A stretch of DNA of 40,933 bases from Armatimonadota bacterium (lineage in GTDB: Bacteria; Armatimonadota; UBA5829): contig JAPLCU010000025.1 in the NCBI GenBank assembly GCA_026392045.1, forward strand, positions 1 to 40,933. The letters are read 5' to 3'. The notes under the pieces are model-generated. The model ran no database searches. It saw only the letters and a list, made by a program, of their open reading frames with translations, and was not told the DNA's origin. Positions within the stretch are counted from its first letter, which is position 1, and each line of letters opens with the position of its first letter. Positions 9,054 through 37,185 of this stretch are shown piece by piece. The position numbers and the translations under genes were made by a program.

Positions 9054-9193
9054 CCGTGGCTTCGGTGCTTCGGTTCGCTTTTTGAGCCGAAGCAAACCAA
9101 CGAAGAGTTGTGAGTTGGGGAAGGGACGCTTCCCTTCCCCAACACCCAACACCTAACACCCAACACCCAATATTGAAGCTATGGAGCTTCAAT
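9054..9193. terminator. Convergent-gene hairpins and TTGGG-type repeats
   Basis: Between the convergent aldolase and DUF4091 genes there are three hairpins. GCTTCGGTTC/GAGCCGAAGC lies at about 9068-9093. A 13-bp perfect stem with a 4-nt loop spans 9114-9126 and 9131-9143. ATTGAAGCT/AGCTTCAAT (9172-9180 and 9185-9193) overlaps the DUF4091 stop codon. CCCAACACC units (9139-9172) fill the rest. The block probably terminates transcription from both sides, though none of the stems has a long T-run. Confidence 0.5.
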
Positions 9194-14121: not shown

Positions 14122-15428
14122 GAAAGCTCCAAGATTGGTTACTAGCCGGATATATAATCCTGCTTCCTATTCAGTTCAAAATGGGCGACTTTGGCCGATA
14201 TGCGCCTTCTGATACTTTTCTGTTCTTCATATTGCTGGGTTCGGCGCTTGGAGTGATGCGTTTGCGTATCAAACCTAATACCTGGAGTTTCTGGCATCTG
14301 GGATTGATAGCGGCTTTCTTGATTGCAACGCTTGTCGGTCTGGTGCGAACAGGCCGAGTGACACAATACGCCGTCATAAACAAAGACATCGGCTTGCTTG
14401 TGCTGTTTTCGGCTTATGCCGTGATGATCAACGCCGCCGACAGTTGGAAGCGCATCAGATGGATTTTGCGATTGCTGGTCTTGAGTGTTGCCATACAAAA
14501 TGTTTTCTGCGTTTTGGGATTTCTTGCAGTCAGGACTATGGGGGCGCAGTTGCCATTTCTTCTCTCGGACAACACTCGCCTTAACGGCCTCCTGGTAGAC
14601 CCAAATGCTTATGGCGGGCTGCTGGTCATGGCGATAAGCGTGCATATAGTCACCTATTTCCACCGGCAGCCTTTAGTGCCGGGGTTCGCAGGCGCCTTGG
14701 TAACTATAACGCTCGCAATGGGCGTGCTGCTCACGTATTCTCGATCAGCGTGGATAGGCCTTTTTGCTCTTATGCTGATAGTAATGGCGCAAGGCCCAAA
14801 AGCAGGGATTCGGCTTGCGCTGCTTGGCATTGTGAGTTTCTATGCCATTTTGCAAGTCATGGGGCCTCAATATGCCAATGAAATGAGCTCATTGGCATTT
14901 AGGCAGTCGCAGGTCACGGATCGAATCGAACTTATCCACAAGGCAATACTAATGTTCTGGCAGAGCCCGCTGTTCGGTATTGGGATGGGCGTATTCTGGG
15001 AAAAGTACGGCACCATCATCCACAACACCCCGGTCTGGATTCTCACTGAATGCGGCGTATTTGGATTTGTTATATTCGCCGGATTCAGCGCCTGGTTTCT
15101 GCTGAAAGGCATTCAGGCCTACAGGCTGGTGGGAAGGACAGAGAAAGCGCTGGTTATGGGTCTGCTGGCAAGCGACCTGGTCATGATGGGATTGTCAATG
15201 GGAATAGAAGCTACCTACCAACGGCACTGGTGGCTAGTTTTGGCGATGATAGCGGCATCTTATCGCCTATCGCGTGAAAAATCTTTGTTCGGGGGGATTT
15301 GCAATCCCGCCCGAAACGGTAGGCTTCGGCATCAGGATACCGAAGCAACAAACGGTAGGCTTCGGCATCAGGATACCGAAGTAACAAACGGTAGGCTTCG
15401 GCATCAGGATACCGAAGCAACAAGCTGA
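14118..15428 (+). CDS. O-antigen ligase/polymerase-like membrane protein
   Basis: A 436-aa multi-spanning membrane protein of the Wzy/WaaL group, which either polymerises repeat units or ligates the glycan to its acceptor. About ten hydrophobic helices are visible. A large loop near residues 285-320 carries the PLFGIGMGVFWEKYGTIIHNTPVWILTECG region, with the IHN segment usual for this family. The start is ATG 14118, overlapping the flippase stop as ATGA. The last 45 residues are abnormal: FGGICNPARNGRLRHQDTEAT and two more copies of NGRLRHQDTEAT/VT are a translation of an intergenic palindrome plus three 36-bp repeats (15315-15422), so the original C-terminus has been replaced or extended by repeat DNA. 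Wzy and WaaL cannot be told apart here. Confidence 0.85.
   Translation: MRKLQDWLLAGYIILLPIQFKMGDFGRYAPSDTFLFFILLGSALGVMRLRIKPNTWSFWHLGLIAAFLIATLVGLVRTGRVTQYAVINKDIGLLVLFSAYAVMINAADSWKRIRWILRLLVLSVAIQNVFCVLGFLAVRTMGAQLPFLLSDNTRLNGLLVDPNAYGGLLVMAISVHIVTYFHRQPLVPGFAGALVTITLAMGVLLTYSRSAWIGLFALMLIVMAQGPKAGIRLALLGIVSFYAILQVMGPQYANEMSSLAFRQSQVTDRIELIHKAILMFWQSPLFGIGMGVFWEKYGTIIHNTPVWILTECGVFGFVIFAGFSAWFLLKGIQAYRLVGRTEKALVMGLLASDLVMMGLSMGIEATYQRHWWLVLAMIAASYRLSREKSLFGGICNPARNGRLRHQDTEATNGRLRHQDTEVTNGRLRHQDTEATS
15296..15422. repeat. Family-D array, three perfect-length 36-bp units, in the ligase gene
   Basis: Units at 15315-15350, 15351-15386 and 15387-15422 are identical except for one C-to-T. Each has the arms CTTCGG and CCGAAG around CATCAGGATA. 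A GGATTTGCAATCC palindrome with a GCCCGAA tail (15296-15316) precedes the array; the same palindrome type begins the window (4-24). The unit length is a multiple of three, so the array is read as NGRLRHQDTEAT. The stop codon follows 4 bases later. A longer version of the same unit occurs in the next gene in a different reading frame. Confidence 0.95.
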
Positions 15429-15440
15429 GGTGTTGAAATC

Positions 15441-18107
15441 ATGAGAGTGGTGTATACCCTGGATCAGCGATACGATAGCACACCGGATGGAGCTGTGTGG
15501 GTGCGCGGCGGAGCGCCTTACGAATACTGGACTCGGTTTCTAGAGGTTTTTGATCAGGTCCTGCTGTTGGCGCGCGTGCGCCTGGTCGAAAATCCTCCGC
15601 CTGGGGCACATCGCGTTGACGGTGATCATGTGTCAGTTGCCCCGCTGCCGTATTACATCGGCCCCTTTCAATATCTCCTGCGCTCGCGACATATCACCCG
15701 AGCGGCTTTGGAGGCGATCAATTTTGACGATGCTGTTATCTTGTGCGGTGGTCAGATATGTGATCCCATCGCCGAAACGCTTCTTCGCGTAGATCACCCT
15801 TATGCTGTGCACGTCACAGGCGATCCGTTTGACGCTTTCAGCCCAGGCGCAATCAGGCATCCTCTGCGTGGTTACGTGAGATATCATGCGTCTGCATCTC
15901 TCAGGCGTTTGTGCAAAAACGCAAACGCAGCATCTTATGTGACGCAGAGCGCTCTGCAGCAGCGATATCCCTGCAACGGGTTCTCTATCGGCGTATCTGA
16001 CGCGAACATTCCCGCCGATTTTTGCATAGCTAAACCGCGCCCAATTTGCGAAAATCCGGGAACATTCAAAGTGATCATGGTGGGTTCGCTCGCACAAATG
16101 TATAAAGCGCCGGATATACTCATAAAAGCGGTTGGGAGGGCGAAGCTCCCGCTGAGCCGTGGGGGGGGAGGAATGGATATTAGACTGACGATAGTCGGCG
16201 ACGGTAAACATCGGCCTGCGCTTGAAGCACAGGCAAGCCGCCTGGGGATAGCAGACATCATACAATTCAAAGGGGAGCTGCCATCCGGGCAAGCCATTGT
16301 AAACGAACTGGATAAAGCCGATTTATTCGCGCTTGTCTCCCGCACCGAGGGGCTTCCGCGCGCGATGGTCGAGGCTATGGGGCGAGGGCTGCCGTGTATC
16401 GGTTCAAGTGTTGGCGGTATACCCGAACTGCTTTGCGCCGAAGACCTTGTTCCCGCCGGTAATTGGCAGGCTCTATCGGGCAAGTTACGCGAGATAGCCG
16501 GCGATCCTCACCGGCTGGCGCTAATGTCAGAAAGAAACTTAAAGAGAGCCAGAGCATTTCAAGATGATCTTCTGCGCGACCGGCGAGTGGCTTTCTTCTC
16601 TTACATCCGAGAAAGGACTGAAGAATGGCTGGCTTCGGCATCGGCATCAGGATACCGAAGCAACCAAGAATGGCTGGCTTCGGCTTCGGCGTCAGGATAC
16701 CGAAGCAACCAATGGCTGGATTCGGCTTCGGCATCAGGATACCGAAACAACCAATGGCTGGATTCGGCTTCGGCATCAGGATACCGAAACAACCAATGGC
16801 TGGCTTCGGCTTCGGCATCAGGCTACCGAAGCAACCAATGGCTCGGCAGGAGCCTCGCCCTCCCCGGGAGCCTCGCCCTCCCCGGGAGGCTTGCTCATAT
16901 AACTACAATTCCCAGCACGCTAATGTTCCTGACAGGACAGGTCGAATATATGCGCTCTAAGGGATTCGAAATACATACTCTGTCGTCGCCCGGGAAAATA
17001 CCCGCCGAGCATGCTGAGCTCTGTCGAAGCACGCGGCAGGAGATATGTAAGCACCATACCGTAAAGATGACGCGCCGCATCACACCTGCGCAGGATCTTG
17101 TGGCGCTTATTGATCTGACTCGGATTTTGAAGCGAATTCGCCCGACGATTGTACACTCACATACTCCAAAAGCTGGTCTTCTGGGTATGCTGTCTGCATG
17201 GATAGCGCGAGTTCCCATAAGGGTCTATCACATTCACGGGCTGCCTTTTATCACAGCCACAGGCCATAAACGCTTCATTCTGGGCATCACTGAGCGCCTA
17301 TCGTGCAAGCTCGCGCATCAGGCGCTGTGCGTAAGCCCGAGCGTGCGTGACGTGGTGATTTCTGAAGGATTCTGCCCGGCTGATAAGATCAAGGTAATAG
17401 GCTGCGGAAGCATAAATGGAGTGGACGCCGAGGGCGCATTCAATCCTGATTCAATGGGTGGATCCCGCGCGGAGGTGCGCAAGAAATATAATATTCCGCA
17501 AGACGCGGTTGTCATAGGATTCGTCGGTCGAGTCGTGCGCGATAAGGGTGTTGGCGAATTAGTTGAGGCTTGGCAGAACATCAAGGCTGAGTTTCCAGAG
17601 GCATACTTGATGATAATCGGGGATTTCGAAGCAGAAGATGCGATCCCTGTGAGCGCCGAAGAAGCGCTTCGAAGCGATGATCGGGTGCGCATAACCGGAT
17701 TTCTGTGGGAGATGCCTCCGCTCTACGCCGCAATGGACATGGTCGTGCTTCCGACGTATCGGGAGGGTTTCCCGGTCGTGCCTCTTGAAGCTGCGGCAAT
17801 GATGCTGCCCGTTATCGCCACGACCGTGCCCGGATGTGTGGATGCTGTGATTGATGGCGTCACCGGCAAGCTCATACATCCCAAAGACTCAAAAGCGCTT
17901 ACGGAAGCCATCAGGAATTACCTCAAGGATGAGAATTTGCGATTGGCTCACGGACAAGCTGGCCGAGAACGAGTAATCACAGAGTTTCGTCCAAGAGACA
18001 TCTGGGAAGCAACTCATACTGAGTATTTGCGGCTTCTGCGTGAAGCAGGGAATAGAAGGGAGGGAATAGGTTACAGGGAACAGGGAATAGAAGGGAGGCG
18101 GAGGTAA
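15441..18107 (+). CDS. Double GT4 glycosyltransferase fused through a repeat array
   Basis: An 888-aa cytoplasmic protein made of two GT-B fold family 4 glycosyltransferases. The first (about 1-390) has the C-terminal donor-binding motif RTEGLPRAMVEAMGRG (E-x7-E). The second (about 490-870) has HITTIPSTLMFLTGQ at its N-terminus and REGFPVVPLEAAAMM (E-x7-E). Between them is a low-complexity linker of five WLASASASGYRSNQ-type units and SLALPG repeats, a direct translation of family-D and family-E repeat DNA (16623-16890). The second enzyme has lost its own start codon, so the parts are covalently joined. Further repeat insertions are at 16134-16168, 17008-17034 and 18044-18101 (the tail GYREQGIEGRRR). 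ATG 15441 has GAGG 11 nt upstream. Each half would add one sugar to the lipid-linked unit. Confidence 0.88.
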   Translation: MRVVYTLDQRYDSTPDGAVWVRGGAPYEYWTRFLEVFDQVLLLARVRLVENPPPGAHRVDGDHVSVAPLPYYIGPFQYLLRSRHITRAALEAINFDDAVILCGGQICDPIAETLLRVDHPYAVHVTGDPFDAFSPGAIRHPLRGYVRYHASASLRRLCKNANAASYVTQSALQQRYPCNGFSIGVSDANIPADFCIAKPRPICENPGTFKVIMVGSLAQMYKAPDILIKAVGRAKLPLSRGGGGMDIRLTIVGDGKHRPALEAQASRLGIADIIQFKGELPSGQAIVNELDKADLFALVSRTEGLPRAMVEAMGRGLPCIGSSVGGIPELLCAEDLVPAGNWQALSGKLREIAGDPHRLALMSERNLKRARAFQDDLLRDRRVAFFSYIRERTEEWLASASASGYRSNQEWLASASASGYRSNQWLDSASASGYRNNQWLDSASASGYRNNQWLASASASGYRSNQWLGRSLALPGSLALPGRLAHITTIPSTLMFLTGQVEYMRSKGFEIHTLSSPGKIPAEHAELCRSTRQEICKHHTVKMTRRITPAQDLVALIDLTRILKRIRPTIVHSHTPKAGLLGMLSAWIARVPIRVYHIHGLPFITATGHKRFILGITERLSCKLAHQALCVSPSVRDVVISEGFCPADKIKVIGCGSINGVDAEGAFNPDSMGGSRAEVRKKYNIPQDAVVIGFVGRVVRDKGVGELVEAWQNIKAEFPEAYLMIIGDFEAEDAIPVSAEEALRSDDRVRITGFLWEMPPLYAAMDMVVLPTYREGFPVVPLEAAAMMLPVIATTVPGCVDAVIDGVTGKLIHPKDSKALTEAIRNYLKDENLRLAHGQAGRERVITEFRPRDIWEATHTEYLRLLREAGNRREGIGYREQGIEGRRR
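16134..16168. repeat. Family-E palindrome inserted in the first glycosyltransferase
   Basis: GGGAGGGCGAAGCTCCCGC begins a 24-bp stretch (16134-16157) that matches, with two differences, the palindrome after the dehydratase gene (30997-31021). A run of eight G follows (16161-16168). It is read in frame as GRAKLPLSRGGGG, at a loop where relatives normally have only a few residues between a helix and the DIRLTIVGDG strand. Confidence 0.75.
16623..16890. repeat. Family-D and family-E arrays joining two glycosyltransferases
   Basis: Five family-D units lie end to end: 45 bp (16623-16667), 45 bp (16668-16712) and three of 42 bp (16713-16754, 16755-16796, 16797-16838), all multiples of three. Two 18-bp units ending CGCCCTCCCC (16848-16865 and 16866-16883) follow and are inverted copies of the family-E motif. 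No strand or frame of the array contains frequent stops, so it is translated without interruption. Confidence 0.95.
17008..17034. repeat. MITE-core motif inside the second glycosyltransferase
   Basis: The 27 bp from 17008 differ at about three positions from the inverted arm of MITE copy 1 (5763-5791, reverse complement); the shared core is CTGAGCTC-N-GTCGAAG. It is read in frame as AEHAELCRSTR, in a loop that is some 6-8 residues longer than I expect for relatives. No terminal repeats or target duplication are visible around it. Confidence 0.6.
18044..18101. repeat. Family-B repeat forming the glycosyltransferase C-terminus
   Basis: GGGAATAGAAGGGAGGG / GGTTACAGGGAACAGGG units are the inverted form of the repeats at 2194-2262, including a 24-bp exact match. 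They encode the last 20 residues and, through GGAGGCGGAGG, supply the ribosome binding site of the next gene. Confidence 0.8.
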
Positions 18108-18891: not shown

Positions 18892-20043
18892 ATGACAATA
18901 GTAGACAACAGATGGGAGCATGGGTCGTTTTTTCATTGGATGTCACCGAGCGCTGCTGAGGAAGCGGATTACCCTTGGGGGGAAGAAAGTGTCCTGTGCG
19001 GCTCAGGTCGGGACGCATTCAGAGTCCTCATCGAACATGGCAGGGCAAAACGTGGTTGGAAGAGGCTGTATGTTCCGTGCTACTACTGCCAGGAGGTAGT
19101 AGAGTCGCTGCTGTCTACAGGCATCGACGTGCGGCTTTATCCCGATGGTCCCCAGGACGTGATCGTCCGGGGAATCTGTCCCCGGACGGACAATGTCGAT
19201 CTGCGACCCGGAGATGTTGTGCTGCGAGTAGACTTTTTCGGCATGCGAGGCTCGCTGCACACGGAATTGCTTCCAGGTATCGAGACAATTGATGACTTTT
19301 CCCACGATCCGTGGTCGTATGGCGCCTGGAAAAGCAACGCGGATTGGTGCGCGTTCTCCCTCAGGAAAACATTGCCTATTCCAGATGGCGGAGTTCTATG
19401 GTCACCGCGCAGCCATCACTTGCCGCCGCAGCCGCCAGTTACACCAGAGCATAGACTGATATCCCTGGAACGGCTGGCCGCAATGGCGCTTAAAACAGAG
19501 TATCTAAACGGCAAACCCATTCAAAAAAATACGTTTCTCGAATTGGCTATAGCAAGCGAAGTGAAACTTAGCAAAGGGACGCCGTCAGGTATGACCGAAT
19601 GGAGCAAAGACTTATTGAATTGCTTCCCCACCCTCTCGTGGAGGCAACGAAGAAGAGCCAATTATGAGGCATTTGCAGAAGTGATTTCGGGCACGCCATG
19701 GTTGAGATTATTGCACTCTGCAGACAATAAGAAATCGTGCCCATTCTCTGCCATATTTATTTGTGACAACGTCGAACTGCGGAACCATATCCGCGATAGA
19801 CTAATATTGCTCAATATCTATCCAGCAACCTTGTGGCCGCTCGATGAGCCAGCTATTTCTGGAATACCACAGGAATACTTGGATTTCAGCCGAAAAATGC
19901 TGTCCATCCAATGTGACGCCCGCTACACATGCGAAGAAATGCAAAGAGTGGCGAAAATAGTAATCAAATCTGGGGATAACTATCTAAACAAACACCAAGA
20001 ACAACCTACTCAGCAGTCCAATCCGGTAAGCGGCGGAGTATAG
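18892..20043 (+). CDS. PLP-dependent aminotransferase-like protein, fold type I
   Basis: A 383-aa protein that I place in the DegT/aspartate-aminotransferase superfamily. Residues about 135-145 (TIDDFSHDPWSYG) have the Asp that would pair with the pyridine nitrogen of PLP, and SLRKTLPIPDGGVLWSP about 25 residues later contains the expected Schiff-base lysine followed by a Gly-Gly turn. The N-terminal part (VLCGSGRDAFRVLI) matches the phosphate-binding helix region. It is shorter and more divergent than normal sugar aminotransferases, so substrate and even activity are uncertain. ATG 18892 follows MITE copy 2 by 15 bp and uses AGGGA from the target duplication. It is immediately followed by the FemAB-like genes, suggesting a shared role in glycan decoration. 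Confidence 0.7.
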   Translation: MTIVDNRWEHGSFFHWMSPSAAEEADYPWGEESVLCGSGRDAFRVLIEHGRAKRGWKRLYVPCYYCQEVVESLLSTGIDVRLYPDGPQDVIVRGICPRTDNVDLRPGDVVLRVDFFGMRGSLHTELLPGIETIDDFSHDPWSYGAWKSNADWCAFSLRKTLPIPDGGVLWSPRSHHLPPQPPVTPEHRLISLERLAAMALKTEYLNGKPIQKNTFLELAIASEVKLSKGTPSGMTEWSKDLLNCFPTLSWRQRRRANYEAFAEVISGTPWLRLLHSADNKKSCPFSAIFICDNVELRNHIRDRLILLNIYPATLWPLDEPAISGIPQEYLDFSRKMLSIQCDARYTCEEMQRVAKIVIKSGDNYLNKHQEQPTQQSNPVSGGV

Positions 20044-20045
20044 AG

Positions 20046-21122
20046 TTGCATAATAATACACTGTTAACTTTAACAACCAAAGATGCGCGACTATGGAAAA
20101 CCGCACTTGAACAGACACGGCCTTATGATTTCTATCATCTGCCTGAGTTTCATCGGCTGGCAGAAGGCAATGGTGAAGGCGACGCGGTCATGCTGGTCTT
20201 CACCCAAGAGAGCCACATGATCGCATTTCCTATGCTGCTTCGGAATCTAGATATTCCTGGTAAAGCGTATAGAGATGCGGGGTGTGTTCACGGCTTCGTG
20301 GGACCCTTGACCACATCCGGTGAAATACCAGAGCAAGTGCGGCGACATTTCATTGAAAGCCTTCAGGAATTCTATATAAGCCAGAATGTAATATCCGCTT
20401 TTAGCAGGCTGCACCCGCTCATTGATAGATCGACGCTTCTCAGCGGCTATGGAAATGTCATAGATGTGGGCGCTACTTTATCCATCGACCTCACGCCACC
20501 TCCCGAAGAGCAGCTAAGCCGATATAGAAGAAACCATCGGCAGGATATCAACCGGCTCAAAAACGCAGGCTACACTTGCCGTAGAGTTGGGCCAAAGTAC
20601 CTAGGCGACTTTCTGCGCATCTATCTGGACACGATGGATAGAATACAAGCGGATAGCATGTACTACTATGACAACGATTATTTTGAGTATCTGTTGCGTG
20701 AGATGAAAGACGTCATACACCTCTTCGTATGTGAACTAGACGGCTGCATCGCCAGTGTTGCGCTATGCGCTTTTTGCAATGGCATAATCCAAGTTCATCT
20801 GGCTGGAACAGACGCTGAGCATAAGAAATTCGCGCCAATGAAGCTGGTCTTCGACACTATTCGAGAATGGGGCAACAAAAATGGCGCAAATGTGGTTCAT
20901 CTGGGAGGCGGAGTCGGGGCAAGACGAGATTCTCTTTACAACTTCAAAAAGGGATTCGGCGCGAATGAACATACATACCGCATTTGGCAGCATATCGTCG
21001 ACCCTGACGTTTATGAAACGCTCTGCAGCCAGGCGTTTGATGAATCGCGAATCGAACCAAGCGTGGACTACTTCCCGAAATATCGAAACCCGTGTCTTCG
21101 GGGAATAGGTCTTAGGTCTTAG
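20046..21122 (+). CDS. FemAB-like GNAT transferase, paralogue 1
   Basis: First of three tandem paralogues, 358 aa. The double-GNAT layout of FemAB/Acetyltransf_6 proteins is visible: YDFYHLPEFHRLAEG near residue 25, RYRRNHRQDINRLKNAGY near 165, VHLAGT near 250, and HLGGGVGARRDSLYNFKKGFG near 295. Relatives transfer amino acids or acyl groups to amino groups on cell-envelope glycans. In this locus an amino sugar is the likely acceptor, but that is inference. Start TTG 20046 has GGAG 7 nt upstream, inside the end of the preceding gene (2-bp gap). The last residues (GIGLRS) and the stop codon come from a TTAGG-type repeat that begins within the gene, so the C-terminus has been reshaped by repeat DNA. 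Confidence 0.85.
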   Translation: MHNNTLLTLTTKDARLWKTALEQTRPYDFYHLPEFHRLAEGNGEGDAVMLVFTQESHMIAFPMLLRNLDIPGKAYRDAGCVHGFVGPLTTSGEIPEQVRRHFIESLQEFYISQNVISAFSRLHPLIDRSTLLSGYGNVIDVGATLSIDLTPPPEEQLSRYRRNHRQDINRLKNAGYTCRRVGPKYLGDFLRIYLDTMDRIQADSMYYYDNDYFEYLLREMKDVIHLFVCELDGCIASVALCAFCNGIIQVHLAGTDAEHKKFAPMKLVFDTIREWGNKNGANVVHLGGGVGARRDSLYNFKKGFGANEHTYRIWQHIVDPDVYETLCSQAFDESRIEPSVDYFPKYRNPCLRGIGLRS

Positions 21123-21145
21123 GTTTTAGGTGTTAGAAGGGAAGG
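21104..21145. repeat. Family-C TTAGG-type repeat at the end of a gene
   Basis: TCTTAGG, TTTTAGG and TGTTAG units run from about 21107 to 21137. They overlap the last 15 bases of the first FemAB-like gene and supply its stop codon. Similar units follow serC (5526-5560) and lie between the aldolase and DUF4091 genes (9139-9172). Confidence 0.7.
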
Positions 21146-21169
21146 GATTGCGCGAGGAGGTTATGAGAA

Positions 21170-22288
21170 GTGCTTAGTAGCATCAGCGTAGAAATCCTCA
21201 CAATCAGCAACTGCGAGCGATGGCGGGAAACTCTCAACGAGATTGGCGCTTATGACTTCTATCACCTGCCGGCATTTCATCGCCTTGCGGAAATGCAAGG
21301 AGAATGCGAGGCTGTGATGCCTGTCTTTCGCCGAGATCGCTATGTAATGGCATTTCCGATGCTGCTGAGGAATATGCCGGAATCTGCTCAAGTTGGCTCT
21401 GCGCTCAAAGACGCCACTTCAATCAACGGATTTGCAGGGCCTGTGGTATCTACGGTTAATTTACCTGAAGAAATTCGACAAGATTTTCAGCGCATGCTCC
21501 ACGATTTCTTCGCGCAAAACCACATAGTGACAGCATACAGTCGGCTGCACCCGCTAAGGAGCAGTAATTTGCTCGGAGATGGGTTCGGGGAGTTGCGAAA
21601 GATCGGAGTTCTGCTGTCTATAGATCTCTCATTGCCTCCCGAAGCTCAATGGCAAAACCTCAGACGCGACCACAGAAAAGATATCCGCAGATTGCAGAAA
21701 AAAAATTACATTTGCGAAGAAGGCAGCCTTCGGGATTTAGATGAAGTCATTGCAATTTACCACGACACAATGCGCCGCGTTAAAGCCGATGCGGCGTTTC
21801 TATATGATAAAGCATATTTCGAATATCTGCTTACAGAAATGCCCGATGTAATGCACCTGTTTCTATGCCGACTGAACGGCACAATAGCCACATTCATGAT
21901 CTTTTCTCACTGCGCGGGGATCGTGTCGCCATATATAAGTGGGACCGCAAAGGGATTTGTAGAAGACTCACCATCCAGGATATTGTATGATGCTTTGCGC
22001 ATTTGGGGTAATGAAAATGGGGCAAGACGCATTCACCTTGGTGGAGGGGTTGGTGGACAGCGTGACCAGTTATACCATTTCAAACGCGGCCTGGCTACCG
22101 ATGAACACGCATATCAAACTTGGAGGTACGTTGTGGACCAGAAAGTGTATGACGAAATCTGCCGAAATATCTGTAATGACGAGAGCAGCGAACTCCGCAC
22201 ATCTTACTTTCCCGCTTACAGAGACCCGGCGCAACAGATTTCGCATGCAGCATCAGCGGAGCATACCAACATATCAAGCGGAAGGTAG
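21170..22288 (+). CDS. FemAB-like GNAT transferase, paralogue 2
   Basis: Second tandem copy, 372 aa, clearly homologous over its whole length to its neighbours: YDFYHLPAFHRLAEM, AFPMLLRN, SRLHPL, LRRDHRKDIRRLQKKNY and HLGGGVGGQRDQLYHFKRG. It is the most divergent in the strand before the glycine-rich motif, where the AHLAGT-like segment reads SPYISGT, so its acceptor may differ. GTG 21170 is preceded by GGAGG at 9 nt; a closer ATG leads to a stop after four codons. It has an extra C-terminal tail of about 15 residues (HAASAEHTNISSGR) not present in the others. The next gene starts 10 bp later. Confidence 0.85.
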   Translation: MLSSISVEILTISNCERWRETLNEIGAYDFYHLPAFHRLAEMQGECEAVMPVFRRDRYVMAFPMLLRNMPESAQVGSALKDATSINGFAGPVVSTVNLPEEIRQDFQRMLHDFFAQNHIVTAYSRLHPLRSSNLLGDGFGELRKIGVLLSIDLSLPPEAQWQNLRRDHRKDIRRLQKKNYICEEGSLRDLDEVIAIYHDTMRRVKADAAFLYDKAYFEYLLTEMPDVMHLFLCRLNGTIATFMIFSHCAGIVSPYISGTAKGFVEDSPSRILYDALRIWGNENGARRIHLGGGVGGQRDQLYHFKRGLATDEHAYQTWRYVVDQKVYDEICRNICNDESSELRTSYFPAYRDPAQQISHAASAEHTNISSGR

Positions 22289-22298
22289 ATTAGTACCC

Positions 22299-23375
22299 AT
22301 GCATGAGCAGGTGGATATACTCACAACCAGGGATTTCGAGCCTTGGAAGCAAGCTCTGGAAGAGGTAGGCAACTATGACTTCCACCATCTTCCGTCATAT
22401 CATCGTCTTGCAGAGATGCGCGGTGAGGGAGATGCGTTTATGCTAGTCTACCGAACAGCCGATTGCCTGATCGTTTTCCCTCTTCTTCTTAAGGAAATCA
22501 ATCTACCATGCTCTAAATTGCGCGGCTTCAAGGATGCGACGTCCGTGCATGGTTACGCTGGTCCATTGTGTTCAAAGACTCATGTTTCGGAGGACATCAG
22601 TAATCGGTTCCTCCGAAACATCGGAGACTTTTACCGGTCAAACAACGTCGTGACGGCCTTCACTCGTCTGCATCCGCTTTTCGATCAAGCCTTCCTCCTG
22701 AGAGGTTGCGGAGAAATCACGGAAATTGGCGTTACAGTCTCGATAGACCTCACACAGCCTCCCGAAGAACAGAGATCGAGATATCGCAAAAGCCACCGAT
22801 ATGAGATCGAACGTCTGCGGAAAAAGGGGTTCACATGCTGCGAAGTCGGCCCAGAACGCACGGATGAATTTGTTCGAATATACAACCAGACTATGCTCGA
22901 CCTGAAAGCCGATGATTTTTATCTATACGATCGTGCGTATTTTGACTATCTCATAGGAGATATGGCCGATGTGACCCATCTGTTTATGTGCTTAGACGGC
23001 GACAACGTAGCATGCGTGGGGCTGTTCGCGACTTGCCAGGGTATCATCCAGTATCATCTCGCGGGAACCGCGACGCGCTATCGAAAACTAGCTCCCATGA
23101 AGCTCCTGCTGGATACCGTTCGAGACTGGGGAAACGAGATAGATGCAACCACACTGCATTTGGGTGGTGGGCTGGGAGCGAAACGTGATTCGCTCTATGA
23201 GTTCAAAATGGGCTTTGGAAGTGTCGAGCATACCTACACCGCATGGAGAATGGTGATCGATTCAGCAATATACAGGGAGCTTTGCCACGATGCCCAAAGT
23301 ATGATCGCCGAGGAACTCGACAACACCTATTTCCCTATCTATAGAAACCCGATCCTGCACGAAAAGACCTCGTAA
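22299..23375 (+). CDS. FemAB-like GNAT transferase, paralogue 3
   Basis: Third tandem copy, 358 aa, closest to the first: YDFHHLPSYHRLAEM, KDATSVHGYAGPL, RYRKSHRYEIERLRKKGF, YHLAGTATRYRKLAPMKLL and HLGGGLGAKRDSLYEFKMGFG. The frame is open far upstream into paralogue 2, but homology begins at MHEQVDILTTRDFEPW, which fixes the start at ATG 22299. Only a weak GGAAGG lies 13 nt upstream, so translation may depend on coupling. Three linked copies suggest successive addition of the same kind of substituent, or addition to three different positions or sugars. This is inference from copy number and locus. Confidence 0.85.
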   Translation: MHEQVDILTTRDFEPWKQALEEVGNYDFHHLPSYHRLAEMRGEGDAFMLVYRTADCLIVFPLLLKEINLPCSKLRGFKDATSVHGYAGPLCSKTHVSEDISNRFLRNIGDFYRSNNVVTAFTRLHPLFDQAFLLRGCGEITEIGVTVSIDLTQPPEEQRSRYRKSHRYEIERLRKKGFTCCEVGPERTDEFVRIYNQTMLDLKADDFYLYDRAYFDYLIGDMADVTHLFMCLDGDNVACVGLFATCQGIIQYHLAGTATRYRKLAPMKLLLDTVRDWGNEIDATTLHLGGGLGAKRDSLYEFKMGFGSVEHTYTAWRMVIDSAIYRELCHDAQSMIAEELDNTYFPIYRNPILHEKTS

Positions 23376-31515: not shown

Positions 31516-34500
31516 ATGTTTTCTCCCCGTAATATCAGATATTTTCGCTCCAATGGCAGTGCAGCTTGGAAATTCGCTGCCACCGCTGCGCTTGTAGTGG
31601 TCATTGCTCTTCCAATCGCAGGCCTTTCGGCTTTGAAATCCAATGACGAGAGATCCCACCCCGCTTACTACGTCAAAAAGCAGACTGCCCGCGAGACGTT
31701 CACGGCAACGATGCAAGAGATCACCAGCAACAGACCCAAACTCGGGCCTTGGTACTACATCGGGCCATTCAATAATGACGACTTCAAGGGCGAAAACAGA
31801 GAATACGGGCCCGAGAAGGGCGTCGACCTCGATGCCGAGTATGCGGACACGGACGGAAAAACAGTCAAATGGCGTAAGGCGAATAGCTTCGTCGATGGCC
31901 AGGGCTGCGACCTGCGTGCTCTTATGGACTATGATTTTAAGGTCGCATATGTTGGACGCGAGATAGAGGCAAAATATGCTGAAGACTACAGGGTAAGCGC
32001 GTCTGCGGATGATGCAGTAGCCATCTGGTGCAACGGCGAGAGAATGGGTGATCCCGGAAATGCAATACTCAGACTCAAGCCCGGCAAGAATCAACTTGTG
32101 CTGAAGGTCTCGCAAGCCACTGCAGGCTGGAATTTCACGTTCAGGTCTCCCGACATCGAAGAAAACGCCAATAAGATAGTCTTATATAGAAAAGGCAACA
32201 CTGTCTTGTCGGAAATATCCAAGGAGTTCCCAGCCTCTGAATTTCACGATGTCTCAATCTATGCGTCGAACTTGATGGAGTATGACGTGATTGCCACACA
32301 GATAGTGGTTAAGGCGAATATCAACTGCTTCGCATCGACGGCGCTGAACCCGCAAGCATTGATCGCCGAATCTGACAAAGACCCCGCCGACGTAGCGCTC
32401 AGGAGAACACGCGCACTTCTGAATGACCTCAAGAGAATGGCGCCCAACAAGGACTGGAGCAGCCTGCAAAGCCAACTGGCAAAGCTCGAAGGCAAAAATG
32501 GGACAGTCGATGTTACAGATAACGCTGCCCGCTTGAATCTCTACATGGAAGCCTGCAAAGTGAGAAGAAAGATAGCATTTTCCAACCCGCTCTTGAACTT
32601 CGACAAGCTTTTGTTTGCCAAACATAGTATGTGCACCCCCGAAAAAAATGCCGGTCACATGTGCTACCAGTTTTACGGCTATAATGCAACGTCAGGCGGT
32701 GGAATCTTTGTAATGGAGAACCCATTTGGGGCCAACCCGGCGCTTAAAGATGTGCTGGAGAATGCTGTGGTTGAATCCGGCAGGCTCAAAGGCACAAAAC
32801 TGACACAGCAGGGCTCATATCTCTCGCCATCGCTGTCTTACGACGGCAAGACCATATTCTTTGCATACACGGAAAGGAGCGGAGGCGCAAACTGGTCACC
32901 CGGTATGTCGTGGCACATTTTCAGGGTCAACGTAGACGGGACCAAGCTCATGCAGTTAACCGATGGCTCGTGGAATGAATTCGACCCTTACCAGATGCCG
33001 AATGGTCGAGTGGTCTTTATTTCTGAGAGACGCGGCGGCTTCGGACGATGTCACACCGCGCCGTGCCCCGTTTTCACACTTTACACTATACAACCTGATG
33101 GCAGCGATCTCGCCTGCATCAGCTATCACGAAACCAACGAATGGCAGCCGGCCATAAACAATGACGGCATGCTCATCTATACCAGATGGGACTATGTTGA
33201 CCGCGGTTTCAACCAGGCGCATCACCCCTGGATTTCCACTCCTGACGGCAGAGACGCGCGCGTCATACAGGGCAATTATCCCGAGAAGCTTCAGAACCGC
33301 CCTTGGATGGAAATGCACCTGCGCCCCATTCCAGGCTCTCAGAAGTACCTGGCTGTTGCCGCCGGGCACCACACGCAGGCCTATGGATCGCTGATCTTGA
33401 TCGATCCTCGCATCCCTGATGATGACGCAATGGCCCAGGTGCGCCGTGTCACCCCGGAAATACCGTTCCCGGAAGGCGAAGCGTGCTCGTGGGCTGGCCA
33501 ACTGACCTACGGAGCCACCTGGCCTTTGTCTGAGAAATACTATATTTCGTGCTATGACCCCGCGAACGACCTCCACGGTTTGTGGCTCGTAGATTGCTTC
33601 GGCAACCGCGAACTCATTTACAGGGACCCGAGCGCGGGCTGCCTTGCTCCGACGCCATTACGGCCAAGAAAAGCGCCGCCAATCGTGCCCGATATGGTCA
33701 AACCAGATGATCCTAAAATTGATACGGGCACTGTAGCTCTAATGAACGTGTATGATTCTTTCAAAAAATGGCCGAAAGGGACGAAAATAACGGCTTTGCG
33801 TATTATAGAAGTGCTGCCAAAAACCACTTTTTTTGGTGACAGCCCAAGAATCGGTCATGCTTATCAGAAAAACGCTCGAATGGTGTTGGGAACCGTTCCT
33901 GTTGAAAAAGACGGCAGCGCATACTTCACTTTACCAGCCAAAAAGCCTGTCTTCTTCCAGGCGTTGGACGCGAACGGCTTGGCGGTGCAATCTATGAGAT
34001 CTGATACTTATGCTCACCCTGGCGAGCGATTAGTATGCCAGGGCTGCCACAACCAGGTTAAGAAATCTCCAAGGCAGGCAAAAGCAACTCCTATAGCATT
34101 GCGCAGAGCGCCATCATATATCAAGCGAGATGTTGAAGGCTCCTATCCATTCAATTATCCGCGGCTGGTTCAGGGCGTGCTGAATCGAAACTGCGTGGAT
34201 TGCCATTCAAAGAACCCGAATTCCCCTGATCTTACAGGCGCTGACGGTGGACAATTCGGTTGGTCCAAGTCTTATTTCAGCTTAAAAGACTTCGCATATT
34301 TCATCGAGCCTTTCGCGGAAACTACGTCCAGAACGATCCCTGGCGAGTTCGGCGCAAAAGCCTCGCGTCTATACAAAATGCTGAGCGAGGGCCATCACGA
34401 TGTCAAACTCTCCAAGCAGGATATGCACAGAATAACTCTTTGGCTGGATTGCAATTCGGACTTCTACGGGTCTTACGAAAACACTGAAGCACAGAGAAAG

Positions 34501-34530
34501 GGCGAGGTGGTCTGGCCGACTCTTTATTAA
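31516..34530 (+). CDS. HzsA-related secreted dihaem protein, copy 1 (with extra N-terminal domain)
   Basis: A 1004-aa extracytoplasmic protein. The N-terminus has a signal or anchor (WKFAATAALVVVIALPIAGLSAL). Residues about 75-215 form an extra beta domain (GPWYYIGPFNNDDFKG, then RVSASADDAVAIWCNGE and NQLVLKVSQATAGWNFTF) like PA14 or carbohydrate-binding domains. The middle resembles TolB/WD-type propellers (SPSLSYDGKTIFFAYTE, HIFRVNVDGTKLMQLTDG, GRVVFISERRGG). Two c-type haem motifs, CQGCH (residue 841) and CVDCH (893), lie near the end. This arrangement is what is called HzsA-related after the alpha subunit of hydrazine synthase; it does not imply hydrazine chemistry. ATG 31516 follows AGGAGG by 8 nt. 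A TATAAT box (31458-31463) lacks a clear -35. Confidence 0.85.
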   Translation: MFSPRNIRYFRSNGSAAWKFAATAALVVVIALPIAGLSALKSNDERSHPAYYVKKQTARETFTATMQEITSNRPKLGPWYYIGPFNNDDFKGENREYGPEKGVDLDAEYADTDGKTVKWRKANSFVDGQGCDLRALMDYDFKVAYVGREIEAKYAEDYRVSASADDAVAIWCNGERMGDPGNAILRLKPGKNQLVLKVSQATAGWNFTFRSPDIEENANKIVLYRKGNTVLSEISKEFPASEFHDVSIYASNLMEYDVIATQIVVKANINCFASTALNPQALIAESDKDPADVALRRTRALLNDLKRMAPNKDWSSLQSQLAKLEGKNGTVDVTDNAARLNLYMEACKVRRKIAFSNPLLNFDKLLFAKHSMCTPEKNAGHMCYQFYGYNATSGGGIFVMENPFGANPALKDVLENAVVESGRLKGTKLTQQGSYLSPSLSYDGKTIFFAYTERSGGANWSPGMSWHIFRVNVDGTKLMQLTDGSWNEFDPYQMPNGRVVFISERRGGFGRCHTAPCPVFTLYTIQPDGSDLACISYHETNEWQPAINNDGMLIYTRWDYVDRGFNQAHHPWISTPDGRDARVIQGNYPEKLQNRPWMEMHLRPIPGSQKYLAVAAGHHTQAYGSLILIDPRIPDDDAMAQVRRVTPEIPFPEGEACSWAGQLTYGATWPLSEKYYISCYDPANDLHGLWLVDCFGNRELIYRDPSAGCLAPTPLRPRKAPPIVPDMVKPDDPKIDTGTVALMNVYDSFKKWPKGTKITALRIIEVLPKTTFFGDSPRIGHAYQKNARMVLGTVPVEKDGSAYFTLPAKKPVFFQALDANGLAVQSMRSDTYAHPGERLVCQGCHNQVKKSPRQAKATPIALRRAPSYIKRDVEGSYPFNYPRLVQGVLNRNCVDCHSKNPNSPDLTGADGGQFGWSKSYFSLKDFAYFIEPFAETTSRTIPGEFGAKASRLYKMLSEGHHDVKLSKQDMHRITLWLDCNSDFYGSYENTEAQRKGEVVWPTLY

Positions 34531-34531
34531 A

Positions 34532-34728
34532 CGCAAACCTAGTTACTTCGGGACACCTTGTCCGGTAATCTCTGCGCACGCGGCGGCATCGGGACAAGGC
34601 GCACCGATACAACAATAGAACAAAAAAGGGCAGATAAGCCTTTCTACTGCGTCTTTAATTGTAAAAGGCGCATAAATATTCGGTAAGCACACTTGCATCG
34701 CATGTGCAATATCCAGGAGGGTATCCAT
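34532..34728. repeat. Duplicated upstream region of the second HzsA-like gene
   Basis: About 115 bp (34614-34728) align with the region before copy 1 (31271-31296 plus 31427-31515), including ACTGCGTCTTTA, CGGTAAGC and ATATCCAGGAGG. The tandem duplication therefore included the promoter and ribosome binding site. TTCGGGACACC hairpin sequence just after copy 1 (34548-34566) recurs after copy 2 (37209-37220), marking the other end of the duplicated unit. Confidence 0.75.
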
Positions 34729-37185
34729 TTGTTTTCTCCCCGTAATATCAGATCTTTTCGCTCCAATGGAAGCGCAGCCTGGAAGTTCGCTGCCGCAACT
34801 GCGCTTGTAGTGGTCATTGCTCTTCCAATCGTAGGCCTTTCGGCTTTGAAAGCCAAGACAGCCATATCCGAAGATTTTCCGGCCCCCGAGGTTCATAATC
34901 TCTCAATAGATACCGCAAACGCTTCAGAGTATGAAGTGATTGCCAAGCAGATAGCCAACAAAGATAGCATCAACCGCTTTGCATCCACCACACTTGACTC
35001 TGCGGCATTGATAGCCGAGTCTGATGAAGACCCCACGGATGTGGTAATCAGAAGAACACGCGCGCTTCTGGCAGATCTCAAGACCATGGCACCCAGCAAA
35101 GATTGGAAAGACCTTCAGACCCAGCTGGACAAGCTCGCCGCGAAGAATAAGATAATTGATATTGAAGATTCGGGCGCCCGCTTCGATCTCTACATGGAAG
35201 CCTGCAGAGTTCGCAGGAAAATAGCATTTTCGAACCCGCTATTGAACTTCGACAAGCTTCTCTTTGCCAAGCACACAATCTGCGGCCCGAATGAAGGCCT
35301 GGGTAATCATATGTGCGACCAGTATTTTGGCTGGAAAGCCGTGCCCGGCGGCGGAATATTCGCGCTGGAGAACCCATTTGGAGCCAATCCTGTGCTCAAA
35401 GATGTGCTGGAGAATGCTGTGGTCAAATCCGGCAGGCTCAAAGGTCAAAAGCTTACTCAGCAGGGCTCATATCTCTCACCATCGCTGTCGTACGACGGCA
35501 AGACCATATTTTTTGCCTACACAGAAAAAGGTGAAGGCGATCTCTGGTCGCCGGGCAAATCATGGCACATTTTCAAAGTCAATGTGGATGGCTCCAACCT
35601 TGTGCAGTTAACCGATGGCCCCTGGAACGATTTCGACCCTTATCAGATGCCCAACGGCAAGTTAGTATTTATTTCCGAAAGACGCGGCGGCTACGGCCGC
35701 TGCCACGGCAGACCGGTTCCCGTTTACACACTTCACACGATGAAGTCCGATGGAAGCGACATCACCTGCATAAGCTATCACGAAAGCAACGAATGGCACC
35801 CTGCAATCAACAACGACGGCATGGTCATTTATTCGAGATGGGACTATGTCGACCGCGGCTTCAACCAGGCGCATCACCCCTGGATTACCACCCCTGACGG
35901 CAGAGACGCGCGCGTCATTCAAGGCAATTATCCCGAAAGGCTTCAAAGCCGCCCATGGCTGGAAGTGCATATGCGCCCCATTCCAGGCTCTGCGAAATAC
36001 GTGGCTGTGGCAGGGCCTCATCATGGACAGGCGTATGGATCACTTATCCTCATCGACCCTAAGGTACCCGATGATGGCGCGATGGCTCAGGTGCGCCGCA
36101 TTACCCCGGAAGCAGCATTCCCGGAAGGCGAAGATAATAGAAGATACCCCTACGGAATGGTCTACGGCGCTACCTGGCCGCTTTCTGAGAAGTATTATAT
36201 TGCGGTTTATGACCCCAAAAGCGCCATTCACGGAGTTTGGCTCATCGACTGCTTCGGCAACCGCGAGCTTATCTACCGAGACCCAAACGTGGGCTGCCTC
36301 GGCGCGATGCCTTTGAGACCCAGAAAAGCTCCGCCGATCATTCCCGATATGGTCAAGCCAACTGACCCAAAGACCAACACAGGCACAATAGCCTTGATGA
36401 ACGTCTATGATTCTGTCAAGCAGTGGCCGAAAGATACAAAAATCACAGCCCTGCGAATCATGGTAATCCTGCCAAAGACAACTCCTAATGCCGACAACCC
36501 AAGAATAGGTTATGGAGCGCAAAAGAGCGCTCGAATGGCGCTTGGGACAGTTCCCGTAGAAGAAGACGGCAGCGCATACTTTACTGTGCCCGCAAAGATG
36601 GCTGTATATTTCCAGGCAATAGATGCGAGCGGCATGGCGGTGCAAAACATGAGATCTGATACTTACGTGCAACCTGGCGAGCGATTGGTATGCCAGGGCT
36701 GCCACAATCCTGTCAGAAAGTCTCCAAGCCGCGCCAACGCAACGCCTACGGCGCTGAAAAGAGCTCCATCCAATATCGTTAAGGATGTTGACGGCTCCTA
36801 TCCATTCAGTTACACTAGACTGGTTCAGGATGTGCTGAATCGAAATTGCGTGGACTGCCATTCGAAGAATCCGGAAGCGCCTGATGTTACAGGCGTTGAC
36901 GGCGGACAAAACGGTTGGTCGAAATCTTATGTCAACTTAAGGGACTACACGTTCTTCTTCGACGGCGCGGCTGAAACTTCGTCACTATCTATCCCAGGCG
37001 AGTTCGGCGCGCGTGCCTCGCGATTATACAAAATGCTAAGCGAAGGCCATCATGACCTCAATCTCTCCAAGCAAGACATGCACAGGCTGACTCTTTGGAT
37101 GGACTGCAATTCGGATTTCTACGGGTCTTACGAAAACACCCAGGCTCAAAGTAAGGGCGAGGTGGTCTGGCCGACTCTTTATTAA
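34729..37185 (+). CDS. HzsA-related secreted dihaem protein, copy 2 (without extra domain)
   Basis: Tandem paralogue of the preceding gene, 818 aa. The signal region is almost identical (FSPRNIRSFRSNGSAAWKF), but the PA14-like domain (about 180 residues) is absent: the sequence jumps from ALKAKTAISEDFPAPE to the segment equivalent to copy 1 residue 235. The TolB-like middle and the haem motifs CQGCH (residue 655) and CVDCH (707) are retained, as is the common ending GEVVWPTLY. Start is TTG 34729, at the position of ATG in copy 1, with AGGAGG 8 nt upstream. Loss of ATG may lower its expression relative to copy 1. Redox partner and substrate are unknown; a role in periplasmic electron transfer or polymer binding is inference. 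Confidence 0.85.
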   Translation: MFSPRNIRSFRSNGSAAWKFAAATALVVVIALPIVGLSALKAKTAISEDFPAPEVHNLSIDTANASEYEVIAKQIANKDSINRFASTTLDSAALIAESDEDPTDVVIRRTRALLADLKTMAPSKDWKDLQTQLDKLAAKNKIIDIEDSGARFDLYMEACRVRRKIAFSNPLLNFDKLLFAKHTICGPNEGLGNHMCDQYFGWKAVPGGGIFALENPFGANPVLKDVLENAVVKSGRLKGQKLTQQGSYLSPSLSYDGKTIFFAYTEKGEGDLWSPGKSWHIFKVNVDGSNLVQLTDGPWNDFDPYQMPNGKLVFISERRGGYGRCHGRPVPVYTLHTMKSDGSDITCISYHESNEWHPAINNDGMVIYSRWDYVDRGFNQAHHPWITTPDGRDARVIQGNYPERLQSRPWLEVHMRPIPGSAKYVAVAGPHHGQAYGSLILIDPKVPDDGAMAQVRRITPEAAFPEGEDNRRYPYGMVYGATWPLSEKYYIAVYDPKSAIHGVWLIDCFGNRELIYRDPNVGCLGAMPLRPRKAPPIIPDMVKPTDPKTNTGTIALMNVYDSVKQWPKDTKITALRIMVILPKTTPNADNPRIGYGAQKSARMALGTVPVEEDGSAYFTVPAKMAVYFQAIDASGMAVQNMRSDTYVQPGERLVCQGCHNPVRKSPSRANATPTALKRAPSNIVKDVDGSYPFSYTRLVQDVLNRNCVDCHSKNPEAPDVTGVDGGQNGWSKSYVNLRDYTFFFDGAAETSSLSIPGEFGARASRLYKMLSEGHHDLNLSKQDMHRLTLWMDCNSDFYGSYENTQAQSKGEVVWPTLY

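Follow-up and report, generated by a model that had tools for sequence, protein, structure and literature searches.

A REP-element array as the probable joint between two glycosyltransferase genes of an Armatimonadota bacterium

Bacterial gene fusions are mostly seen as finished products, in which the event that joined the genes has been lost. In an Armatimonadota bacterium (assembly GCA_026392045.1, contig JAPLCU010000025.1), two glycosyltransferases of family GT4 share one open reading frame, and the DNA between them consists of repeats. The question raised by this locus is whether those repeats joined two formerly separate genes and, if so, how the reading frame was made continuous. The window considered here, meaning the whole stretch of DNA that was analysed, measures 40,933 nucleotides; beyond it, 60 stretches (about 0.92 Mb) of the same genome were analysed. 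A preliminary description had proposed that two GT4 domains are joined in one ORF by an in-frame repeat array, and this is borne out: the ORF at 15441-18107 is open throughout its 888 codons, and Pfam detects GT4 modules, each accompanied by an EX7E motif, in both halves.

The two halves are readily delimited by comparison with relatives. The first domain, GT4-A, is 47-52% identical to the corresponding protein (GT-A) of genomes G011, G001 and G006 as far as TQEW[LI], its own TEEWL end being kept and aligning to TQEWL or TQEWI of these relatives. The second, GT4-B, is 50-58% identical to five relatives over its full length, with the EGFPVVPLE motif intact, and resumes after the array at RLAHITTIP, which aligns to KLVHVTTVP in G011 and RLVHITTVP in G015. 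Given full-length alignments with catalytic motifs, both catalytic domains look intact. Between them lies a repeat-encoded linker of about 85 residues (Table 1). Tandem Repeats Finder places an array of the first repeat family, D, at 16624-16843 (5.2 copies, 93% matches). The preliminary description had correctly counted five D units, though they sum to 213 bp (71 codons) and not to 216 bp (72 codons); its two units of the second family, E, given as 36 bp, are present as one full element (16840-16864) followed by a partial copy (16865-16882). It had also noted that the second domain has no start codon of its own. Indeed, no in-frame ATG, GTG or TTG occurs between the array and the ATG at 16923, which sits within the first conserved strand (RLAHITT) of GT4-B.

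Table 1. Features of the fused glycosyltransferase ORF and of the end of the preceding gene (window coordinates)
Feature	Position	Strand	Remarks
D array of three 36-bp units at the end of the preceding wzy (O-antigen ligase) ORF	15314..15423	+	other frame (NGRLRHQDTEAT)
GT4-A, first glycosyltransferase domain	15441..16625	+	Pfam GT4; ends in conserved TEEWL(A)S
E element within GT-A	16134..16158	-	in-frame GRAKLPLSRGG; net +6 aa relative to three relatives
Ancestral GT-B start codon	16625..16627	+	ATG kept but not in the frame of GT4-B; homologous to the G011/G015 ATG
Array of five D (REP) units	16626..16838	+	45+42+42+42+42 bp; WLASASASGYRSNQ-type repeats encoded
E element (25 bp) and 18-bp partial second copy	16840..16882	+	encodes GRSLALPGSLALPG
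GT4-B, second glycosyltransferase domain	16887..18107	+	Pfam; starts RLAHITTIPSTLMFL; without its own start codon
Third dispersed repeat (GAGCATGCTGAGCTCTGTCGAAGCA) within GT-B	17007..17031	+	in frame; net +6 aa against five relatives
GGAACAGGGAATAG-type short repeat	18046..18104	+	18-aa C-terminal extension (NRREGIGYREQGIEGRRR); homologues without extension

Repeats are not confined to the linker. The third dispersed family, GCATGCTGAGCTCCGTCGAAGCATGCGG-like, has at least 17 copies in the examined quarter of the genome, against 0 for the reversed control. In the window, 2053-2149 and 9138-9170 consist of tandemly repeated heptamers (AGTGGAA, CCCAACA), and a related 14-mer, the short repeat of the last row of Table 1, recurs across the genome and supplies the C-terminus of the fused protein. 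The window also holds runs of similar genes: three consecutive related genes in the polysaccharide cluster (20046-23375), the first with FemAB/acetyltransferase-like Pfam hits, and two adjacent, similar large secreted-type proteins (31516-34530 and 34693-37185), which form a pair of tandem paralogues.

A search for relatives with two separate, adjacent GT4 genes, suggested by the preliminary description, recovered the unfused state. In the family-mate G011, GT-A and GT-B are separate, overlapping genes: GT-A ends TQEWLKSSNR, GT-B starts MAEILQPVKLVHVTT, and the ATG of GT-B falls inside the last QEWL codons of GT-A (cagGAATGGCTG), 24 nt 5' of the codons for (K/R)L(V)H. The gene order GT-A, GT-B, sugar transferase is preserved in G011, which argues against a chimeric join. 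In G015, GT-A has decayed, yet the overlap is still visible (VVKERTEV / ATGTCTGAAGC) with the same 24-nt spacing, whereas in G001 and G006 one gene stands between the two. In distant phyla they are likewise separate, and the fused ORF is present in none of the 18 order-mates. This distribution supports the reading, already put forward in the preliminary description, that the GT4-GT4 fusion is derived, with the repeat as its agent. The earlier view of the linker as captured intergenic repeat needs amending, in that the DNA is repeat but the site invaded is a gene overlap.

What, then, is the repeat? The D core, GCTTCGGCATCAGGATACCGAAGC, has 184 matches in the genome at up to two mismatches against 0 for a reversed-pattern control, and its inner 20-mer occurs, among 61 genomes, only in this one (187) and in G011 (19). 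The consensus of 129 copies reads GTAG-GCTTCGGCATCAGGATACCGAAGC-AACTAA, the GTAG head being exact in 39 of them and by far the commonest tetranucleotide; the D copies of the glycosyltransferase linker have themselves lost it. D forms a hairpin (GCTTCGG-N10-CCGAAGC; 7-bp stem, DNA minimum free energy -7.3 kcal/mol, z -4.97) that none of 200 shuffles equalled in stability. A RAYT-type Y1 transposase gene (PF01797), with an HYH motif in MPDHYHVIL, lies at 3991-4470 of contig C107 with a D copy on either side (3934 and 4511), the two being inverted, and the RAYT of an order-mate (G018), 62% identical to it, has inverted D variants on both sides. Inverted copies around the gene are the layout that defines RAYT/REP units (PMC2817692). 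Its GTAG head, hairpin and copy number, together with the inverted copies around a RAYT gene, identify D as a REP element of the GTAG type; the RAYT transposase of the same genome is predicted to transpose it and has probably spread it. Identity of D with the Rickettsia palindromic element (RPE), to which the preliminary description had likened the repeat, was rejected on size (a palindrome of 24 bp in D against 105-146 bp) and on the flanking transposase. E is also dispersed, with 94 copies of its core in the genome and 0 for the reversed control. The idea that E is a RAYT-linked REP found no support: no E copy lies within 1.5 kb of the PF01797 gene at four of five such loci, and E folds no better than shuffles.

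The arrays themselves point to local growth. In all 34 multi-copy D clusters the copies share one orientation, and the spacers are alike within an array and different between arrays; such locus-specific spacers argue for local amplification of the REP together with host flank. At the glycosyltransferase locus the amplified flank is GAATGGCTG, the host gene junction, where GT-A ends and GT-B has its ATG, and each D unit of the linker opens with a copy of it, TGGCTG / ATGGCT, so that here, too, the REP and its flank would have been amplified in place. The old ATG at 16625 consequently recurs at 16670, 16712, 16754, 16796 and 16838, giving six ATGGCT copies, all in the same wrong frame; the first opens a dead-end ORF of 111 aa (16625-16960). 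Between this ATG and the (K/R)L(V)H codons, G011 and G015 each have 24 nt, whereas the window has 262 nt. The difference of 238 nt is 3n+1, and it places GT-B in the GT-A frame while leaving the old ATG outside it.

A continuous frame also has to be free of stops. Read in the GT-A frame, consensus D (ASASGYRSN) is bounded by the TAG of its GTAG head and the TAA of AACTAA, and in that frame at least one end is a stop in 87 of the 127 D copies outside the linker, against none of the five units of the linker, which have TCG and CAA instead; a ribosome would therefore read through them. The D core is open in five of the six frames. Three of the five differences among the linker units are silent in the glycosyltransferase frame, a number too small to use. 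The fusion needed both a net 3n+1 insertion and stop-free units, which makes it one of three possible frame outcomes and not the work of a special fusion device. The preliminary statement that all unit lengths are multiples of three applies to gene-embedded arrays and not to the D family. In wzy, the glycosyltransferase pair and cheB, 8 of 8 spacings are multiples of three, compared with 12 of 35 in other places (Fisher p 0.0009), an enrichment to be read as weak, since it comes from only three arrays and the units within each are non-independent; array spacings elsewhere in the genome fall in all three classes (14, 13 and 10).

The same arithmetic exposes the reading to a sequencing or assembly artefact. 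One base missed or extra anywhere in 16628-16886 would undo the fusion, leaving two overlapping genes with repeat-extended ends, of which GT-B could regain its old ATG and be extended at the N-terminus. That ATG and the GAAAGGA upstream of it survive, frame 2 is open across the array (MAGFGFGIRIPKQP) and would be reconnected by a single base, and the assembly is fragmented, at 206 contigs. The fused frame gives the junction sequences EEWLASASASGYR / LALPGRLAHITT and ERTEEWLASASASGYR / LALPGRLAHITTIPSTLMFL, and the alternative frame gives MAGFGFGIRIPK. We regard such an error as unlikely, because the array holds no obvious homopolymer error and both E copies of the linker match each other and the genomic E consensus. 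Collapse of copy number during assembly is ruled out as the cause of the fusion, as the linker units are all multiples of three.

Copies of D elsewhere show what else such insertions do. The array closing the preceding wzy gene is in another frame, as the preliminary description had observed. Single in-frame copies lie in Pfam-domain proteins, namely CheA, a CHAT protein, a PMT_2 protein, an exosortase, a methyltransferase, an M16 peptidase, a beta-galactosidase and an arabinofuranosidase. In cheB (contig C112 of this genome, about 20032-21235), which is intact as one gene in four family-mates, a three-copy D array parts the receiver and methylesterase ORFs, which are in different frames; the DIEMP motif of the receiver is also altered. 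With the glycosyltransferase genes fused in one case and cheB split in the other, D arrays change frames regardless of outcome. The split cheB and the many proteins with single in-frame copies make the glycosyltransferase fusion look like a tolerated accident.

If damaging insertions such as that in cheB are tolerated, the fused ORF might itself be a decaying pseudogene pair, joined without function and encoding dispensable enzymes; that it holds two further dispersed-repeat insertions and a low-complexity tail would fit. We consider this improbable. The ORF maintains 888 stop-free codons in which every insertion is in frame and the EX7E motifs are intact in both domains, the surrounding cluster is otherwise complete, and a close second copy of GT-B was not found in the genome. 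That the enzymes are still made separately, with GT-B initiating at any of the six ATGs in the array (the first with its plausible upstream GAAAGGA) and then shifting by +1, for which CCC-CGG in the E units (CCCCGGG occurs twice ahead of GT-B) is a possible site, or restarting downstream, is very improbable, as the GT-A frame continues into GT-B with no special event required and the first in-frame standard start, ATG 16923, would delete the RLAHITT strand common to all homologues.

We therefore favor the REP-mediated fusion, for which the following course of events is proposed. A D copy with an adjacent E element would have entered the overlap of two consecutive GT4 genes in an exopolysaccharide cluster, probably moved in by the RAYT transposase, and the insertion would have destroyed the stop of GT-A. 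The REP and its small host flank would then have been tandemly amplified. The net length would have put the body of GT-B in the GT-A frame and stranded its start codon, and read-through of the stop-free units would yield the 888-residue GT4-GT4 protein. What the DNA shows directly is the sequence of the locus, the family to which the repeat belongs, the transposase gene between its D copies, the overlap of the ancestral genes and the count of the frame change. Transposition by that RAYT, the order of these events, near-neutrality rather than a selected benefit, translation as one polypeptide and continued activity of both domains are inferred. For the scenario as a whole, from arrival at the overlap to read-through, we estimate a probability of about three in four.

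In bifunctional GT4-GT4 glycosyltransferases such as WbdA, a single polypeptide with a pair of GT4 catalytic domains serves one polysaccharide pathway. The predicted two-domain protein described here differs in that its linker is traceable to mobile repeat DNA and that the fusion occurs in no relative searched. Among repeats, D resembles the REPs of GTAG-type REP/RAYT REPtrons in its GTAG-headed palindrome, its more than 100 copies, its arrays and its RAYT-type gene between inverted copies (PMC3733652; PMC2817692). REPs inside ORFs have been documented, and in Thauera and R. conorii their clusters encode 43-82 aa (PMC3733652); in contrast to known REPs, the present array occupies what was a start/stop overlap in the ancestor, with the start codon copied into every unit. 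RPEs are likewise palindromic repeats read in frame inside conserved proteins, and one RPE-bearing enzyme was translated and active (PMC2229807). They measure 105-146 bp, some being CGTC-tagged, and CGTC units were not found flanking any transposase gene (PMC3733652), whereas D is about 30 bp long, GTAG-type and associated with a flanked RAYT. RPE inserts of this kind also sit within single genes (PMC2229807), whereas the D array joins two. REPs within genes are thus already known, but the non-subscription literature searched yielded no account of two genes joined by a REP array.

The value of this locus is that the joining DNA is still recognizable, that a relative still has the two genes unfused and overlapping, and that the change of frame can be counted to the base. 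It is possible, though we advance it tentatively, that REP mobilization is a general way of fusing and splitting genes that has so far gone unrecorded, acting through stop-poor hairpin arrays inserted at overlapping operon gene boundaries or domain linkers. If so, REP arrays would re-sort reading frames, fuse genes as in the glycosyltransferase pair or split them as in cheB, and supply a ready-made repeat linker. With the fused glycosyltransferases and the array-split cheB taken together, it becomes testable in REP-rich genomes whether mobile repeats drive the fusion and fission of domains.
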